Origin: Bacteroidetes bacterium HGW-Bacteroidetes-8
GTDB taxonomy: Bacteria; Bacteroidota; Bacteroidia; Bacteroidales; UBA932
Assembly (NCBI GenBank): GCA_002840895.1
Contig: PHCZ01000002.1
Span: 1-64,000 of the forward strand
Length of the DNA: 64,000 nucleotides
Direction of reading: 5' to 3'
Made by a program: the position numbers and the translations under genes. The notes beneath the pieces were generated by a model, which was not told where the DNA came from, did no database searches, and was given only the letters and a program-made list of their open reading frames with translations. This document shows positions 18,952-25,036 of the stretch, in pieces (within the stretch, counting starts at the first letter, position 1; each line of letters starts with the position of its first letter).

Positions 18952-18982
18952 TTTGCTCATTAATTTTCAATTAATACCTTTG
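18952..18982 (+). promoter_or_regulatory. Promoter of the met/thr leader and operon, with a palindrome in the spacer
   Basis: A TTTG box (18952-18955), a 19-bp spacer and TACCTTTG (18975-18982) form a full Bacteroidetes promoter. The spacer is almost filled by an inverted repeat with 7-bp arms, ATTAATT-TTC-AATTAAT (18959-18975), a possible operator. The predicted transcript start is near 18988, a few bases ahead of the leader reading frame. Confidence 0.8.
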
Positions 18983-19000
18983 CAACTCCTAAATGAGCGT

Positions 19001-19123
19001 ATGAGTTTAAACACAAACATACAAAGAGTGACCTGCGGGGCGATTTTCGCTACGGGCACGACTTGTATAACGCTCATATCCAAACAGATGATGATGCGAA
19101 TGCATCGGCAGATGCATAGATAG
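19001..19123 (+). CDS. Leader peptide sensing Thr/Ile/Met upstream of metY-metX-thrA-asd
   Basis: A 40-residue frame begins shortly after the predicted transcript start. The middle holds ATGTTCITLIS, and in all it has six Thr and four Ile. The end is QMMMRMHRQMHR, with five Met in nine codons (three consecutive ATG codons at 19088-19096). Thr, Ile and Met are the products of the pathway encoded by the downstream operon or its direct branch, which is the hallmark of an attenuator leader peptide such as E. coli thrL. An overlapping frame at 18993 encodes only three codons. The peptide is likely non-functional in itself; ribosome position on it would be the signal. Confidence 0.75.
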   Translation: MSLNTNIQRVTCGAIFATGTTCITLISKQMMMRMHRQMHR

Positions 19124-19227
19124 TTTTCCGGGCCTTTCGAAGGTCCATTGGGTGTAAGCCCATAAATCCGCTCCGGGCTTTCGCCCGAAAAAGATCAAAA
19201 AAATTATCAACTCCTTTAATCATCATC
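19124..19227 (+). promoter_or_regulatory. Structured attenuator region of the met/thr operon leader
   Basis: Right after the leader stop codon three hairpins can form: GGGCCTT/AAGGTCC (19130-19146), TGGG/CCCA (19149-19162) and CGGGC/GCCCG (19174-19187). The last arm, GCCCG, can instead pair with CGGGC at 19129-19133, extended by TTTT/AAAA, so exclusive alternative folds exist. The final hairpin is followed by A-rich sequence, not a U tract. ATCATCATC (19219-19227), just before the metY ATG, is complementary to GATGATGAT (19087-19095) in the Met-codon run of the leader. Upstream, ATGAGCGT (18993-19000) can pair with ACGCTCAT (19070-19077). Confidence 0.6.
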
Positions 19228-19231
19228 TAAA

Positions 19232-20524
19232 ATGACGACAAAACATTTTGATACCCTACAGGTACACGCAGGCCGCAATGTTACATCAAACGGGCCTTGC
19301 GCAACTCCTATTGTACAAACATCTGCATTTCATTTCGATAGTACAACACAGGCAGCCAACCTATTTGCTCTAAAAGAGTTCGGGAATATCTACACAAGGC
19401 TCTCAAACCCTACAACAGATGTTCTGGAGCAGAGAGTCGCAGCCCTGGAGGGGGGTGCCGCGGCTGTGGCAACATCTTCGGGCCAGGCAGCCCAATTCCT
19501 TGCCATCCAGAATATTGCAGGTGAAGGAGATAACATAATCAGCTCCTCTTCACTCTACGGCGGCACCTACAACCAATTTAAAATAAGCTTTGCAAGAGTT
19601 GGCATTGAGTGCCGTTTTGCACCTATTAACGACCCTGCTGCCTTTGAAGCGCTAATAGATAGCAGAACAAAGGCAATCTATTTTGAAACAATAAGTAACT
19701 CAAATTTTTATATCCCCGATTTTAAAGAGTTTGAGAAGATTAGTAAAAAACACGGCGTTCCAATTATTGTAGATAACACATTCGGAGCAGGGGGATATCT
19801 ATGCCGCCCTATCGAGTTGGGAGCAGCAGTTGTTACCCACTCTGCCACAAAGTGGATTGGCGGACACGGCAACTCGCTGGCAGGAATTGTTGTGGATAGC
19901 GGAAAATTCCGTTGGGACAACGGCAGGTTTCCACAAATTACAAATCCATCTGAATCCTATCACGGGATTAGCTTTTGGGAGAGCTTCGGAGAGGGATCTG
20001 CAACCGGTAACATAGCCTTTGCAGTAAGAGCCAGAACTGAGGGGCTTCGCGACTGGGGATGTTGTTTAAGTCCGTTCAATGCATTTCTTATCCTCACAGG
20101 AGTTGAAACTCTATCTCTAAGAGTCGAAAAAGTTGTAAATAATGCACTTGAATTGGCAAAATGGCTCCAAGCACACCCGAAAGTTGAGTCGGTTAACTAC
20201 CCCGGGCTGAGTGATAACCCTAACCACGAAAGAGCTAAGCATTACCTCACTAACGGGTTTGGAGGGGTACTTTCCTTTGCAATCAAGGGGAGCAAAGAGC
20301 AGGCCTCTCAATTTGTTAGCCGGTTGGCTCTAATAAGCCACCTCACCAATGTAGGAGACAATAAAACCCTTATCAGCCATTCGGCATCAACTACCCACTC
20401 TCAGATGACACCACAGGAGCTGCAAATTGCAGGAATCGGAGAGAGCTCCCTTAGAGTATCGCTTGGCATAGAGTATATAGAGGATATAAAAAGAGATCTT
20501 CAAAACGCCTTTTCAACTATTTAG
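19232..20524 (+). CDS. metY: O-acetylhomoserine sulfhydrylase (aminocarboxypropyltransferase)
   Basis: PLP enzyme that makes homocysteine from O-acetylhomoserine and sulfide. The 430-residue length and the segment FETLQVHAG-like N-terminus (HFDTLQVHAGR) fit the MetY branch of the Cys/Met metabolism family. The PLP lysine lies in HSATKWIGGHG, with SRLSNPT-type cofactor contacts (TRLSNPTTDVLEQR) and IVDNTFG upstream. The C-terminal SHSASTTHSQ and LRVSLGIEYIEDI are the family endings. It is the first structural gene after the leader, with a start codon next to the complementary ATCATCATC element. Confidence 0.95.
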   Translation: MTTKHFDTLQVHAGRNVTSNGPCATPIVQTSAFHFDSTTQAANLFALKEFGNIYTRLSNPTTDVLEQRVAALEGGAAAVATSSGQAAQFLAIQNIAGEGDNIISSSSLYGGTYNQFKISFARVGIECRFAPINDPAAFEALIDSRTKAIYFETISNSNFYIPDFKEFEKISKKHGVPIIVDNTFGAGGYLCRPIELGAAVVTHSATKWIGGHGNSLAGIVVDSGKFRWDNGRFPQITNPSESYHGISFWESFGEGSATGNIAFAVRARTEGLRDWGCCLSPFNAFLILTGVETLSLRVEKVVNNALELAKWLQAHPKVESVNYPGLSDNPNHERAKHYLTNGFGGVLSFAIKGSKEQASQFVSRLALISHLTNVGDNKTLISHSASTTHSQMTPQELQIAGIGESSLRVSLGIEYIEDIKRDLQNAFSTI

Positions 20525-20536
20525 GGAGGAGATAAA

Positions 20537-21598
20537 ATGAAGAGAGAGATTTTCAGATATTCCGGAAAATTTGAGACGGAGAGCACAGAGGTTATCGACT
20601 CCCTTGAGATTTGCTATCACCATACGGCAAACTACTCTCCGGATAAAAGAGTTATATGGATCTGCCACGCACTTACCGCCAACTCCAACCCAACAGAGTG
20701 GTGGGATGGACTCGCCGGCCCCGGAAAACTTTTTGACACAGAAAAGTTCTACATAATCTGCGCCAACGTCCTTGGCTCTTGTTACGGTACAACCGGCCCC
20801 ACATCGGTAGAGAAAGATGGAAAGCAGTATCTACTCCGCTTTCCTCAAATAACAGTAAGAGACACAGTTAAAGCCCACAACATTTTAAGAGAGGCGCTTG
20901 GCATTGAGCAGATAGATCTTATAACAGGAGGTTCGATAGGCGGGTTTCAGGCACTTGAATGGGCTGTCACCTACCCCCATATCATTGACAAGCTGGCTCT
21001 TATAGCGTGTAATGCACGGGTTTCACCCTGGGGTACGGCTTTCAATGAATCACAAAGGCTTGCACTACTTGCCGACCCTACATTTACCGAGCAGAGAGAT
21101 AGCAACGGGGGCAAGAAGGGGCTTGAAACAGCCCGTTCAATAGCTCTCCTCTCCTACCGATCTTACGAAGGGTACGGGATATCCCAAAAAGAGCCGGACC
21201 AGGATTTTCTCTTCGCAAAGAGGGCCGGTAGTTACCAGAAGTACCAAGGCGAAAAACTCTCGGCCCGTTTTGATGCCTACTCCTATTTTACTTTGACAAA
21301 ATCTATTGATAGTCACAATATCGGGAGAGGAAGAGGGGGTGTCGTAAACGCACTTTCCAAAGTAGAGGCCAATACTCTGGTAATCGGTATCGATAGCGAT
21401 GTGCTATTCCCTATTGAAGAGCAGCGATTTATGGCAGATAATATTCCAAATGCAACATTAATGGAGATAAAATCCCTATTCGGGCACGATGGTTTTCTGC
21501 TGGAGTATAACCAGACAGCAGATGCAATTATAAAAGCTTTCCCCGATCTATTCAATTCAATAACAACAGTAAATAAAAAAGTATATGCAGGTTCTTAA
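20537..21598 (+). CDS. metX: Homoserine O-acetyltransferase
   Basis: Makes O-acetylhomoserine, the substrate of MetY, from homoserine and acetyl-CoA. The 353-residue alpha/beta-hydrolase-fold protein has the nucleophile elbow GGSIGGFQALEWA (Ser about residue 135), the acid Asp in IDSDVLFP and the terminal His in GHDGFLLEYNQ. The length and the elbow motif are those of MetX, not of a plain esterase. It starts 12 bases after metY and its end overlaps thrA by 14 bases. Confidence 0.94.
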   Translation: MKREIFRYSGKFETESTEVIDSLEICYHHTANYSPDKRVIWICHALTANSNPTEWWDGLAGPGKLFDTEKFYIICANVLGSCYGTTGPTSVEKDGKQYLLRFPQITVRDTVKAHNILREALGIEQIDLITGGSIGGFQALEWAVTYPHIIDKLALIACNARVSPWGTAFNESQRLALLADPTFTEQRDSNGGKKGLETARSIALLSYRSYEGYGISQKEPDQDFLFAKRAGSYQKYQGEKLSARFDAYSYFTLTKSIDSHNIGRGRGGVVNALSKVEANTLVIGIDSDVLFPIEEQRFMADNIPNATLMEIKSLFGHDGFLLEYNQTADAIIKAFPDLFNSITTVNKKVYAGS

Positions 21599-24023
21599 GT
21601 TTGGCGGAAGCTCGGTTGCTAACGCCGCTAACATAATAAAAGTGACCACAATTGTTGCAGATGCAGTAAAAAAAGACAGGACAATTCTGGTCTGTTCGGC
21701 AATTGGGGGGTGTACAGATAAACTTATAAAGGCAGCCTCTCTTGCATCTGAAAGAGATCCTCGCTACAAAGAGATAGTTGAATCGCTCGAGAGTGACCAT
21801 TACAAGATTATTGGCGAGTTGATCCCCGAGGAGTACAGATCAAAAATTAACGCCCGTTGCAGCAATCTCTTTGAATCACTCAAAGGTCTTCTTGAGGGTA
21901 TATCTCTCACCGGAGAGCTCACTCCGGGCTCCTGCGATTTGGCTGTTAGTTATGGAGAGCTGCTCTCTACCTCAATAATATCTGCAAAGCTAAGCTCTCT
22001 CGGGATAAACAACATCTGGACAGACTCTCGTGAACTTGTAAAGACCATCTGCCACAATTCACAAAACATAGTAGATATTGAAGCAACAAACAGAAACATT
22101 GTCCATTTCCTGGGCGCTAACGGAACCAAACTATGGGTTGTTCCGGGTTTTATCGCAAGCGACCACAAGGGGAGAACAACAACATTAGGAAGAGGAGGTT
22201 CAGACTATACTGCATCTCTTTTTTCGGCAGCTTCCGGAGCAAGGGTGCTGGAGATATGGACAGATGTAAACGGAATGATGACCGCAGACCCAAGAGTGGT
22301 TCCCGATGCCAAAACAATAGAGAACATCTCATACAAGGAGGCGCTTGAACTCTCCCACTTCGGGGCAAAGGTGGTCTACCCCCCAACAATCCAGCCGGCA
22401 GTTGCAGGTGGCATTCCTATTGTGGTAAAAAACACTTTTGACCCCTATGGAGCCTCAACAGTGATTGAGAACCGGCCACCCGACGGCAGGGGTAAAATAC
22501 GCGGTATATCGGGCAGTAACAAAATAGCCCTGCTCTCTCTTGAAGGGAGCGGAATGGTAGGTATTCCCGGCTACTCTGCCCGATTGTTCACCGCTCTTGC
22601 AAATGCAAAGGTCAATATTGTTCTTATTACCCAGGCCTCATCACTTCACACAATGTGTGTTGCAATTGAAGAGAGTGCCGCCGAAACTGCCGGGAGTGCG
22701 GTAGATGAAACCTTTGCATACGAAATATCGCTCTCAAAGGTTGAGCCGGTTAAGGTTGAGAGGGGCTATGCAATCATATCCCTTGTTGGTGACGATATGA
22801 AGAACCAGGCGGGTACAAGCGGGAAGATGTTTGATGCGCTTGGAAGAGCAGGCATCAATATCCGCGCAATTGCTCAGGGGTCGTCGGAGAAGAATATATC
22901 TGCAATTGTAAAGGGAGAGGATTCTGACGATGCAGTGAGAGTGGTTCACGAAGAGTTTTTCGGATACAAACGAGAGAGGGTAAATCTCTTTATTGCAGGG
23001 TTTGGGAATGTAGGGAAATCGCTTGTTAATCTCATAAACGAGACCAAAAAAAATATTGCCACAGAGTGGGGTAAAGATATTGTAGTCGCCGGTATCTGCA
23101 ACAGTACAAGATGTATAATAGACAAAGAGGGGGTAGATCTTTCGCATGCGCAGGAGTTGCTCCTCTGTGGAAAAGCTACAGATATTACCGGCTTTGTGAG
23201 AGAGATATCTGCCCTCTCCCTGGGTAACTCCATTTTTGCAGATTGTACTGCTCAAAACACTGTCGCTATGCAGTATGCCGATATTCTGGAAGAGGGGATA
23301 TCTGTTGTGACCTGCAATAAGATAGCCCTCTCTTCATCAATGGAGTACTGGGATCAACTCAAAAGAGTGGCACTTGACAGAAGGGTGTCACTACTCTATG
23401 AGACATCTGCAGGAGCAGCCCTTCCGGTAATCGAGACCATATCGAGGCTAAAGGTGAGCGGAGAGAAGATTCTTTCGGTTGAGGCGATACTTTCGGGAAC
23501 TCTAAACTATCTTTACAGCAGTTATGACGGTTCAAAAAGCTTTGCATCGCTCATAAAGGAGGCGAAAGAGGCGGGATATACCGAACCTGACCCAAGGGTA
23601 GATCTCTCGGGAACAGATGTATTGAGAAAGTGTACAATCATTGCCAGAGAGTGCGGGTTCCGTGCCGAGCAAAAGGATGTCGAGATTGAACCTCTGGTAG
23701 ATAAAGCCCTCTTTTCGGGAACACTTTGCGATTTCTACAACAAAGTTGAAGAGTGGGAGCCAAAATTCTTGCAGAGGTACAATGAGGCTGCCAACAAGGG
23801 GGAGAGGCTAAGATATGTTGCATCCATTGAACAGGGCCAATACAAAGTAGGATTGAGGTCGTTACCTACCAGCCACCCGCTCTACAACATCTCCGGGACA
23901 AACAACTCCGTGATGATAACAACCTCGAACTATCCGGCAGGGGTTGTGATTTCGGGAGCAGGAGCAGGTGCTCGGGTAACAGCGGGGGGAGTCTTGAACG
24001 ACATACTTAAAGTGGGTATTTAA
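21585..24023 (+). CDS. thrA: Bifunctional aspartokinase/homoserine dehydrogenase
   Basis: First and third steps of the aspartate pathway in one 812-residue chain. The N-terminal kinase starts with VLKFGGSSVANA and has TLGRGGSDYTASL and WTDVNGMMTADPR. Two ACT-type regulatory domains lie about residues 310-460 (GSGMVGIPGYSARLFTALA and LVGDDMKNQAGTSGKMFDALG). The C-terminal homoserine dehydrogenase has the NAD-binding GFGNVGKSLV and the catalytic region GTLNYLYSSYDGSKSF...AKEAGYTEPDPRVDLSGTDV. The ACT domains suggest feedback by threonine, as in known ThrA. The start lies within the metX end, so translation is probably coupled. Confidence 0.96.
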   Translation: MQVLKFGGSSVANAANIIKVTTIVADAVKKDRTILVCSAIGGCTDKLIKAASLASERDPRYKEIVESLESDHYKIIGELIPEEYRSKINARCSNLFESLKGLLEGISLTGELTPGSCDLAVSYGELLSTSIISAKLSSLGINNIWTDSRELVKTICHNSQNIVDIEATNRNIVHFLGANGTKLWVVPGFIASDHKGRTTTLGRGGSDYTASLFSAASGARVLEIWTDVNGMMTADPRVVPDAKTIENISYKEALELSHFGAKVVYPPTIQPAVAGGIPIVVKNTFDPYGASTVIENRPPDGRGKIRGISGSNKIALLSLEGSGMVGIPGYSARLFTALANAKVNIVLITQASSLHTMCVAIEESAAETAGSAVDETFAYEISLSKVEPVKVERGYAIISLVGDDMKNQAGTSGKMFDALGRAGINIRAIAQGSSEKNISAIVKGEDSDDAVRVVHEEFFGYKRERVNLFIAGFGNVGKSLVNLINETKKNIATEWGKDIVVAGICNSTRCIIDKEGVDLSHAQELLLCGKATDITGFVREISALSLGNSIFADCTAQNTVAMQYADILEEGISVVTCNKIALSSSMEYWDQLKRVALDRRVSLLYETSAGAALPVIETISRLKVSGEKILSVEAILSGTLNYLYSSYDGSKSFASLIKEAKEAGYTEPDPRVDLSGTDVLRKCTIIARECGFRAEQKDVEIEPLVDKALFSGTLCDFYNKVEEWEPKFLQRYNEAANKGERLRYVASIEQGQYKVGLRSLPTSHPLYNISGTNNSVMITTSNYPAGVVISGAGAGARVTAGGVLNDILKVGI

Positions 24024-24052: not shown

Positions 24053-25036
24053 ATGAAAATTGCAGTAGTGGGTGCAACCGGGCTGGTTGGCACCAAGATG
24101 ACAGAGGTTTTGCAGGAGCGAAACTTTCCGGTAACAGAGTTTATTCCTGTAGCATCATCCAAATCGGCAGGTAAAAAAATAGAATTCGCAGGTAAAAAGT
24201 GGACGGTTAAGACTCCCGAAGAGGCTATCGCGATGAAGCCTCATATTGCTCTCTTCTCTGCAGGATCTGATATCTCCGGGGAGTGGGCCCCAAAATTTGC
24301 AGCTGCAGGGTGCAGGGTGGTAGACAACTCATCCCGCTGGAGAATGGACCCCACAATCAAACTTATTGTTCCTGAGATTAACGGAGAGACCCTCACAAAA
24401 GAGGATATGATTATCGCAAACCCCAACTGTTCTACAATTCAGATGGTTGTAGCATTAAACCTGCTACACCAAAGATACAAACTAAAGAGGATAGTTGTCT
24501 CTACATACCAATCGGTTACAGGAAGCGGAATAAAAGGGATTAACCAGCTAAGGGAAGAGCGTGGGGAGAGAGTGATCGGGGGAGGAGATAAAGCTTATGC
24601 CCACCCGATAGATATGAATCTGATTCCCCAGATAGACCTCTTTACCGAGAACGGTTACACAAAAGAGGAGATGAAGATGGTGAACGAAACCCGAAAGATT
24701 TTCGCAGACAATACCATCGCAATAAGTGCCACCACGGTAAGGGTCCCGGTAGAGGGCGGGCACTCGGAGAGTGTAAATGCAGAGTTTCACGAAGAGTTTC
24801 TCTTAGAGGATATTTTTGCTATATTGCGCAAAACTCCCGGAGCAATATTTATGGACAACTCCAACAACCCACCCTACCCTATGCCTATTTACGCATATGG
24901 TAAAGATGAAGTTTTTGTGGGGCGTGTGAGAGAAGATCTCTCTTGCAAAAAAGCTGTAAATATGTGGGTCGTTGCAGATAACTTAAGAAAAGGGGCTGCA
25001 ACAAATGCCGTTCAAATAGCAGAACTGCTCTCGTGA
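24053..25036 (+). CDS. asd: Aspartate-semialdehyde dehydrogenase
   Basis: NADPH enzyme of the second step, feeding homoserine dehydrogenase and also the lysine/diaminopimelate branch. The 327-residue product has VVGATGLVGTKMTEVL at the N-terminus, the catalytic Cys in NPNCSTIQMV and the His region VPVEGGHSESVNAEF. It follows thrA by 29 bases and completes a route from aspartate to homocysteine within the operon, apart from sulfide supply and methylation. In this family the length is about 330-370, so it is complete. Confidence 0.95.
   Translation: MKIAVVGATGLVGTKMTEVLQERNFPVTEFIPVASSKSAGKKIEFAGKKWTVKTPEEAIAMKPHIALFSAGSDISGEWAPKFAAAGCRVVDNSSRWRMDPTIKLIVPEINGETLTKEDMIIANPNCSTIQMVVALNLLHQRYKLKRIVVSTYQSVTGSGIKGINQLREERGERVIGGGDKAYAHPIDMNLIPQIDLFTENGYTKEEMKMVNETRKIFADNTIAISATTVRVPVEGGHSESVNAEFHEEFLLEDIFAILRKTPGAIFMDNSNNPPYPMPIYAYGKDEVFVGRVREDLSCKKAVNMWVVADNLRKGAATNAVQIAELLS

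Follow-up and report, generated by a model that had tools for sequence, protein, structure and literature searches.

A candidate methionine attenuator ahead of metY in Bacteroidales, with leader Met codons complementary to the start region of the operon

The trp, his and thr leaders exemplify ribosome-mediated transcription attenuation of amino-acid operons, and in the trp and his leaders a pause hairpin lets the leader ribosome catch up. In erm translational attenuation, by comparison, a leader ribosome stalled by an antibiotic frees a sequestered start region. The SAM-I riboswitch senses SAM directly, and leader peptides have been little studied in Bacteroidetes. Control of bacterial methionine biosynthesis is usually ascribed to SAM riboswitches, T-boxes or repressors (in part, extracts of PMC4239095). 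The same extracts, from a study of methionine regulation in Proteobacteria, describe a metXZ RNA element and contain neither the term ‘attenuat’ nor ‘leader peptide’.

In the actinobacterial LEU element a run of Leu codons pairs with the Shine-Dalgarno box of leuA; its authors cite evidence that mutation of the Leu codons leaves regulation unaltered and favour a protein factor (extracts of PMC1262725). A metL leader with several Met, Cys and Thr codons has been proposed before metN in Streptomyces lividans (extracts of PMC8079986). Within the Bacteroidetes, short ORFs in the Bacteroides thetaiotaomicron transcriptome have been likened to leader peptides (extracts of PMC7366714), and the phylum is reported to be generally devoid of Shine-Dalgarno sites (abstract of PMC3155529). 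Extracts of a terminator survey (PMC2965389) and of a leader-gene survey (PMC4833913) hold nothing on Met leaders in Bacteroidetes, and no published Met leader from the phylum was among the matches listed by a literature search that took in a minority of subscription papers.

We analysed a stretch of 64,000 nucleotides (the window) from contig PHCZ01000002.1 of Bacteroidetes bacterium HGW-Bacteroidetes-8, in which a first-pass annotation had proposed a leader peptide and a switching RNA, responsive to Met and perhaps to Thr/Ile, ahead of a methionine operon. The leader is genuine, comprising a promoter, a 40-codon ORF and hairpins, followed by metY-metX-thrA-asd, as had been claimed. Gene names rest on NCBIfam model matches, the best model for metX scoring below its cut-off:

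18952–18982, plus strand: promoter identified from sequence, with a −33 TTTG (18952–18955) and a −7 TACCTTTG (18975–18982)
19001–19123, plus strand: leader ORF of 40 codons, MSLNTNIQRVTCGAIFATGTTCITLISKQMMMRMHRQMHR, with stop codon TAG at 19121–19123; frame kept across the family
19088–19107, plus strand: Met codon run and conserved core, ATGCGAATGCATCG (core 19094–19107), encoding the peptide MMMRMHR
19232–20524, plus strand: metY, O-acetylhomoserine sulfhydrylase (TIGR01326, 597.8 bits; cut-off 495.1)
20537–21598, plus strand: metX, homoserine O-acetyltransferase (best model TIGR01392, 318.1 bits, under its cut-off of 500)
21585–24023, plus strand: thrA, aspartate kinase/homoserine dehydrogenase I (NF006959, 895 bits; cut-off 726)
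24053–25036, plus strand: asd, aspartate-semialdehyde dehydrogenase (NF011456 and TIGR01296, both above cut-off)

The promoter, which we take to be of the Bacteroidete type, stands ahead of the ORF as had been described, and the ORF has the composition ascribed to it: six Thr, four Ile and the Met-rich end QMMMRMHRQMHR. The beginning of the leader region had been set at 18993, where an ATG opens only M-S-V-stop; the 40-codon frame itself begins at 19001. As in an attenuator, this short ORF of the window lies between promoter and operon. The 250-nt leader RNA has a folding energy of −83.1 kcal/mol, against a shuffle mean of −55.75 (z −6.48; equalled in 0 of 200 shuffles). An Rfam search of the whole window returned a tRNA as its sole match, the leader giving none over cut-off, and a loose search of the leader gave one c-di-GMP match far below cut-off. 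Within the operon, metX and thrA overlap by 14 bases (21585–21598), which suggests translational coupling.

A DNA search of 119 family genomes found same-genus matches whose common part is the Met-rich end together with the hairpins that follow (query positions 145–244). The pattern ATGCGNATGCAYCG-N1-5-GATGC was present in 59 of 299 family genomes, belonging to 10 of 25 genera, the majority of family genomes having no match; the reversed control pattern matched none of the 299, and core plus hairpin occurred as a single copy in 58 of the 59 genomes bearing them. A scan of approximately 85,000 genomes yielded 65 loci with the core and a hairpin GCATC-loop-GATGC, where a pattern of this length should yield about six matches by chance (an estimate). 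The next met gene was metY or metX in 55 of these 65 loci; four others were cut too near the core to judge and six were false, having the look of chance. Carriers include Candidatus Cryptobacteroides, Candidatus Egerieousia, Bacteroidales bacterium UBA932 and Bacteroidales bacterium CF, names that presumably point to the GTDB family UBA932. The exact 14-base core, searched in 295 genomes of the order, also matched six non-family genomes, whose 3-kb loci held no metY, metX, thrA or asd and which we treated as chance.

Together with one viral locus and the window, the scanned loci made 67 motif places. Removal of the six false loci, the viral locus and four slices that ended 63–233 bases from the core without a gene match left 56 loci, including the window, which were grouped at 0.72 similarity into 36 clusters represented by their first members, as lineages that are not fully independent. 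The core is conserved at the base level, yet the pattern search itself forces identity, and for that reason metY upstream regions were also taken by protein search. This route, free of the pattern, brought in the variants MRMHL (L163, L168), MQMHR (L179) and one with the first Met lost (L170), all four with the GCATC/GATGC hairpin retained. In genomes G010 and G515 the leader precedes metX (L040, from Bacteroidales bacterium CF, also L081; and L057, also L093), and a metY protein match at E 1e-60 was absent from both.

A TAnnTTTG box lies 30–200 nt upstream of the core in all 36 representatives. In 32 of the 36, the MRMHR frame starts from an ATG no more than 40 nt away from the promoter box, compared with 0 and 1 for the other two frames; in two of the 32 (L074, L129) the opening ATG is the Met codon two codons ahead of the core, and the leaders of L074, L089 and L129, scored at seven codons, may begin farther upstream at another codon. 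The peptides vary widely in length and sequence, ending at MRMHR or a few residues later. Over the 36 representatives, 10.0% of the residues from the start up to the core are Met, or 6.0 times its background in five window proteins, and on the same residues and background (kinship ignored) Ser stands at 2.3 times, Ile at 1.3 times and Thr at 1.1 times. Enrichment in codons for the pathway product, recurring in relatives, is what an attenuator displays, and it is found here in this sixfold excess and in other Met-rich leaders described below. The proposal of a Met-responsive leader is thus well supported by comparison, with Met codons, frame and place before metY or metX all recurring in the family.

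The first-pass annotation had gone further, reading the leader as a two-signal device with Thr/Ile first and Met last, which would be compatible with methionine control as an addition to it. The six Thr and four Ile codons of the window, the presence of thrA within the operon and a Thr content of 12.4% (2.1 times background, p 4e-5, kinship ignored) in ten genus-like representatives—the window's genus and two look-alikes—speak for such a device, but 11 of the roughly 35 Thr in those ten leaders belong to one very Thr-rich leader, L095. Thr drops to 0.5 times background in the other 26 representatives, 16 of which have thrA among the first three downstream matches listed, and near relatives have four, four and two Thr where the window has six. 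Comparison of leaders upstream of metY, which had been suggested as a check, hence divided the claim: the Met codons are conserved, the Thr and Ile codons are not. Moreover, a ribosome stalled at the last Thr codon (19070–19072) would not reach the strand at 19086–19095 considered below, because of the size of the ribosome footprint. We therefore regard Thr/Ile sensing as very unlikely.

A further element lies near the beginning of the leader:

19018–19021, plus strand: CATA element near +18 of the leader, a putative element conserved in most of 31 leaders compared

The comparison covered the 31 of 36 representatives with a start 4–60 nt from the box and a leader of at least 24 nt. CATA(T/C), 16–22 bases past the leader start, is near-constant there amid varying peptide, with A in 29 of 31 at position 19, T in 26 of 31 at position 20, and codon 7 encoding Ile in 26 of 31; the element is also seen, by eye, in the g19 leaders and in L203. 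A pairing partner was sought in nine places, of which the best, gene −15 to +15, was weak (z −2.22, p 0.014) and overlaps P1 in short leaders.

P1 is the pairing that the predicted fold of the window draws between the Met codons (19086–19095) and a stretch just ahead of metY:

19086–19095, plus strand: 5′ strand of P1, AGATGATGAT, over the Met codons (fold; native-versus-swapped tests)
19219–19228, plus strand: 3′ strand of P1, ATCATCATCT, 4–13 nt ahead of the metY start (fold; helix search)

We compared each leader segment paired with its own gene start against the same segment paired with the starts of other clusters, a test across species that needs no single fold. Native duplexes were stronger than swapped ones for leader −24 to +9 against gene −45 to +6 (z −4.78; 0 of 2,000 permutations), and control segments gave z −0.34, −0.13, +1.43, +0.25 and −1.60, the last being the leader against gene +6 to +57. 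Among 20 leader windows scanned, the strongest was −18 to +6 of the core (z −6.08), on the Met codons; the six windows beginning at 0 or later had no native excess, and a distant one, −78 to −54, also reached z −2.46. The excess held separately for the 26 non-genus representatives (p 0.0003) and the ten genus-like ones (p 0.0023). With G-U pairs counted, 19 of 36 representatives had a helix of 8 pairs or longer (7.5 expected), and the other 17, for example L095, L118 and L129, had none; Watson-Crick helices of 10 pairs or longer were present in five of 36 (0.4 expected).

The same pairing is built from different sequences, AGATGATGAT/ATCATCATCT in the window and TGGTTATG/CATAACCA in L073, where ATGGTTATG is the Met codon stretch and CATAACCA the start region. 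In L114 the helix TCATATCTGTC/GACAGATATGG covers the metX start, as do the helices of L087 and L083 with the metX start codon, and in L119 a 15-pair helix that includes G-U pairs extends past the ATG repeats. RNAalifold on the genus alignment did not return P1, whose strand spacing varies. Over the set of 36, the Met codons are significantly complementary to the metY/metX start region, so that a cognate codon run can pair with the start of the first gene, in the manner of the LEU element, both in the window and across the set.

We put at roughly two in three (about 0.65) the probability that this leader is a ribosome-mediated attenuator that responds to methionine and governs how the first gene is translated, a reading that rests on sequence comparison. 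Since the Met codons are themselves the complement of the metY start region, control is likelier to fall on translation than on a terminator. From the computed frame and pairing we infer stalling, its signal and the direction of control as follows. The promoter would give an mRNA whose first ORF encodes the leader peptide, and the Met codons near the end of that ORF could pair, as P1, with the stretch ahead of the metY or metX start codon. With ample charged Met-tRNA, the ribosome would reach the stop codon, P1 would form, the start region would be hidden and the operon would be weakly translated; with charged Met-tRNA scarce, the ribosome would stall on the Met codons and mask the 5′ strand of P1, leaving the start region free. 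H1, a hairpin behind the Met codons, and the U-rich stretch after it might set the timing by making RNA polymerase pause or by blocking the ribosome. If this is true, a Met-codon leader hiding the metY/metX start would sense charged Met-tRNA directly.

We modelled such stalls by blocking 29 nt around the A site, refolding the RNA and comparing the openness of the start region. With the A site at −18 to +9, openness rose by approximately 0.05 on average over the 36 representatives, and at +15 to +24 the modelled gain fell to about 0.015, near zero. A gain of at least 0.1 with the ribosome on the Met codons was seen in 12 of 36, two of which (L071, L084) also gained 0.11–0.12 at stop positions. 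For the window, the gain was 0.18 with the ribosome over the Met codons and 0.01 at +15 to +18; with the window's true stop and a longer RNA (L045) the contrast was small, openness being 0.52 for free RNA, 0.62 when stalled and 0.58 at the stop. The metX-first loci of the window's genus (L040, L057, L081) showed zero modelled gain. In this crude model, then, the predicted structural change on stalling is modest on average.

Other leaders occupy the same place. The 50 family metY regions examined were not a random sample, being the 30 best protein matches (window included) and 20 picked from motif-free genomes. A test for Met-rich upstream ORFs was passed by 32 of these 50, against 2.35 of 50 in shuffles that keep base composition only, and by one of 29 regions from other families, against 1.25 of 29 in shuffles. 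Of the 18 that failed, L150 and L168 are sub-threshold MRMHR/MRMHL leaders, L156 is a short sequence bearing a g19 leader and L180 carries the riboswitch; the other 14 (from g6, g9, g11, g17, g19, g22 and g25) have no visible leader, some with metY placed after other genes. The sole pass among the 29, at shuffle level, is an isolated Met/Cys-rich ORF, MNATTLHTPLSAPATMPMCMCCCGNHS, before metY in L203, from another family of the order.

In g17, regions L177 and L178 carry MRMRRMC leaders without H1, and g19 regions have leaders rich in Met and Cys before metY, so that the case for Met-responsive leaders extends to differently built ones at the same place. The g19 leaders in question are L154, L156, L157, L158, L159, L161 and L162 (Cys above all in L156), the seven terminator-tested among nine g19 regions; the other two, L166 and L169, have no visible leader. 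All seven have TCCGGC-loop-GCCGGA followed by 4–8 T, with an extra copy of GCCGGA 47–55 bases upstream, and from this layout they are likely Met/Cys transcription attenuators. L178 has a 10-bp terminator with T7 (647–670) behind a leader ending in MRMRRMCRLMRC, and the 5′ arm of that terminator can pair, judged by eye, with UAAGGC, a stretch containing the stop codon of the leader; L178 looks like an ordinary transcription attenuator with Met codons. Genome G006 instead has a SAM-I riboswitch (RF00162; L180, 341–446) ahead of metY, the sole one in 149 family genomes under the search filters used, whereas SAM-I lay before metY in four of 20 other-family loci scanned (20 of the 29 having been put to Rfam). 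No SAM-I riboswitch was found in the whole genome from which the window comes. Elsewhere in the family, then, metY follows Met/Cys leaders with terminators, SAM-I in one genome, or a region in which a leader was not seen.

Four hairpins follow the Met codons in the window:

19100–19117, plus strand: hairpin H1, ATGCATC-GGCA-GATGCAT, overlapping the ORF end
19130–19146, plus strand: hairpin HA, GGGCCTT-TCG-AAGGTCC (fold and RNAalifold), present in the genus and L095 and, by eye, not family-wide
19149–19162, plus strand: hairpin HB, TGGG-loop-CCCA, with pairing kept by changed bases in L095, L119 and L127 (by eye)
19174–19187, plus strand: hairpin HC, CGGGC-TTTC-GCCCG, the switching arm of the first-pass annotation; not conserved

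RNAalifold on the genus alignment retained H1, HA and just two pairs of HB. The alternative pairing of the GCCCG arm (19183–19187) that had been proposed as a switch does exist in the window, where the minimum-energy fold uses it, but is not conserved; in L075 and L080, two of the nearest relatives, the corresponding stretch reads CCGGGCATTCACCGG, without a GCCCG arm.

H1 often holds the leader stop codon in its loop, and a T-rich stretch behind it peaks 28–33 bases past the core start, at 52% T against 20–29% beyond +40. Its form would suit a pause hairpin, a roadblock placed after the Met codons or a terminator of low strength, any of which it may be. The last of these bears on classical transcription attenuation, in which the Met leader would govern an intrinsic terminator through competing hairpins or through a weak H1 terminator. 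That arrangement has precedent before metY in the seven g19 leaders and L178, and terminator-like hairpins behind H1 occur in five of 36 MRMHR-group representatives against 1.3 in shuffles; the window's H1 also scored as terminator-like, and at least 4 T in the 8 bases behind H1 were counted in 27 of 36 representatives, by a lenient rule with no shuffled control. Yet the window's H1 stem has 7 bp, three of them G-C, and its T run starts only from the seventh base after it; we judged this stem too weak for a terminator, although the T count leaves H1 a possible one. Hairpins with a T tract behind H1 are absent from the window and from seven other representatives of its genus, and transcription attenuation gives the pairing of Met codons with the start region no place. 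We consider it an unlikely explanation of this leader.

H1 could alternatively be the heart of a metabolite- or protein-binding RNA in which the ORF is incidental, as the unchanged GCATC/GATGC of the four pattern-free leaders (L163, L168, L170, L179) might suggest. Such an RNA would not explain why the frame persists in 32 of 36 representatives, when the alternative frames do so in 0 and 1, or why Met is in sixfold excess; the part shared family-wide is a mere 22 bases or so, the g17 and g19 leaders stay Met-rich without H1, and the leader has no Rfam match over cut-off. This makes a binding RNA distinctly unlikely. Less probable still is that a repressor controls the met operon by binding the dyad ATGCATC-N4-GATGCAT as a DNA operator: the dyad is a near-perfect palindrome and stands in one copy ahead of met genes in 58 of the 59 family genomes having it, but its loop is of 4 or 5 bases, its distance from the promoter box runs from about 45 to 180 bases, and it stays in a single frame with the ORF.

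With methionine attenuation at the level of translation as the preferred reading, a broader one can be set beside it: that the family has largely abandoned SAM riboswitches, that the leader Met codons act as an antisense of the operon start, and that the leader has alternated between a translational form of this sort and transcription attenuators with Met/Cys codons. We regard the chances of this broader reading as even. Translational and transcriptional versions apparently stand before the same gene in one family, which would make a change of mechanism traceable on real sequences and, if true, give a natural series in which attenuators can be followed from one mechanism to another.

Set against known systems, the window's leader resembles those of the trp, his and thr operons in its short cognate-rich ORF, the hairpin overlapping the ORF end and the biosynthetic operon downstream, but differs in that its genus has no clear terminator and control is apparently translational; the seven g19 leaders and L178 fit that classical kind. 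From erm attenuation it takes the proposed freeing of the start by a stalled ribosome, with an amino acid in place of the antibiotic as signal. SAM-I (RF00162) serves the same gene at the same place in G006; the window's leader has no match to it. The S. lividans metL leader, in the extracts of PMC8079986, likewise puts a Met-codon peptide before a methionine gene without a typical terminator, though ahead of a transporter gene, in Actinobacteria and on a leaderless transcript. The nearest published design that we found, judged from the extracts of PMC1262725, is the actinobacterial LEU element: both have a leader ORF with a cognate run that pairs with the first-gene start, and further structure within the closing stem, but the LEU element concerns leucine, Actinobacteria and a pseudoknot, and the present leader concerns Met, Bacteroidales and several sequence solutions for the pairing. 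Attenuators of this kind are known; a variant whose sensing codons double as the repressing strand, for Met and in Bacteroidetes, would be new.
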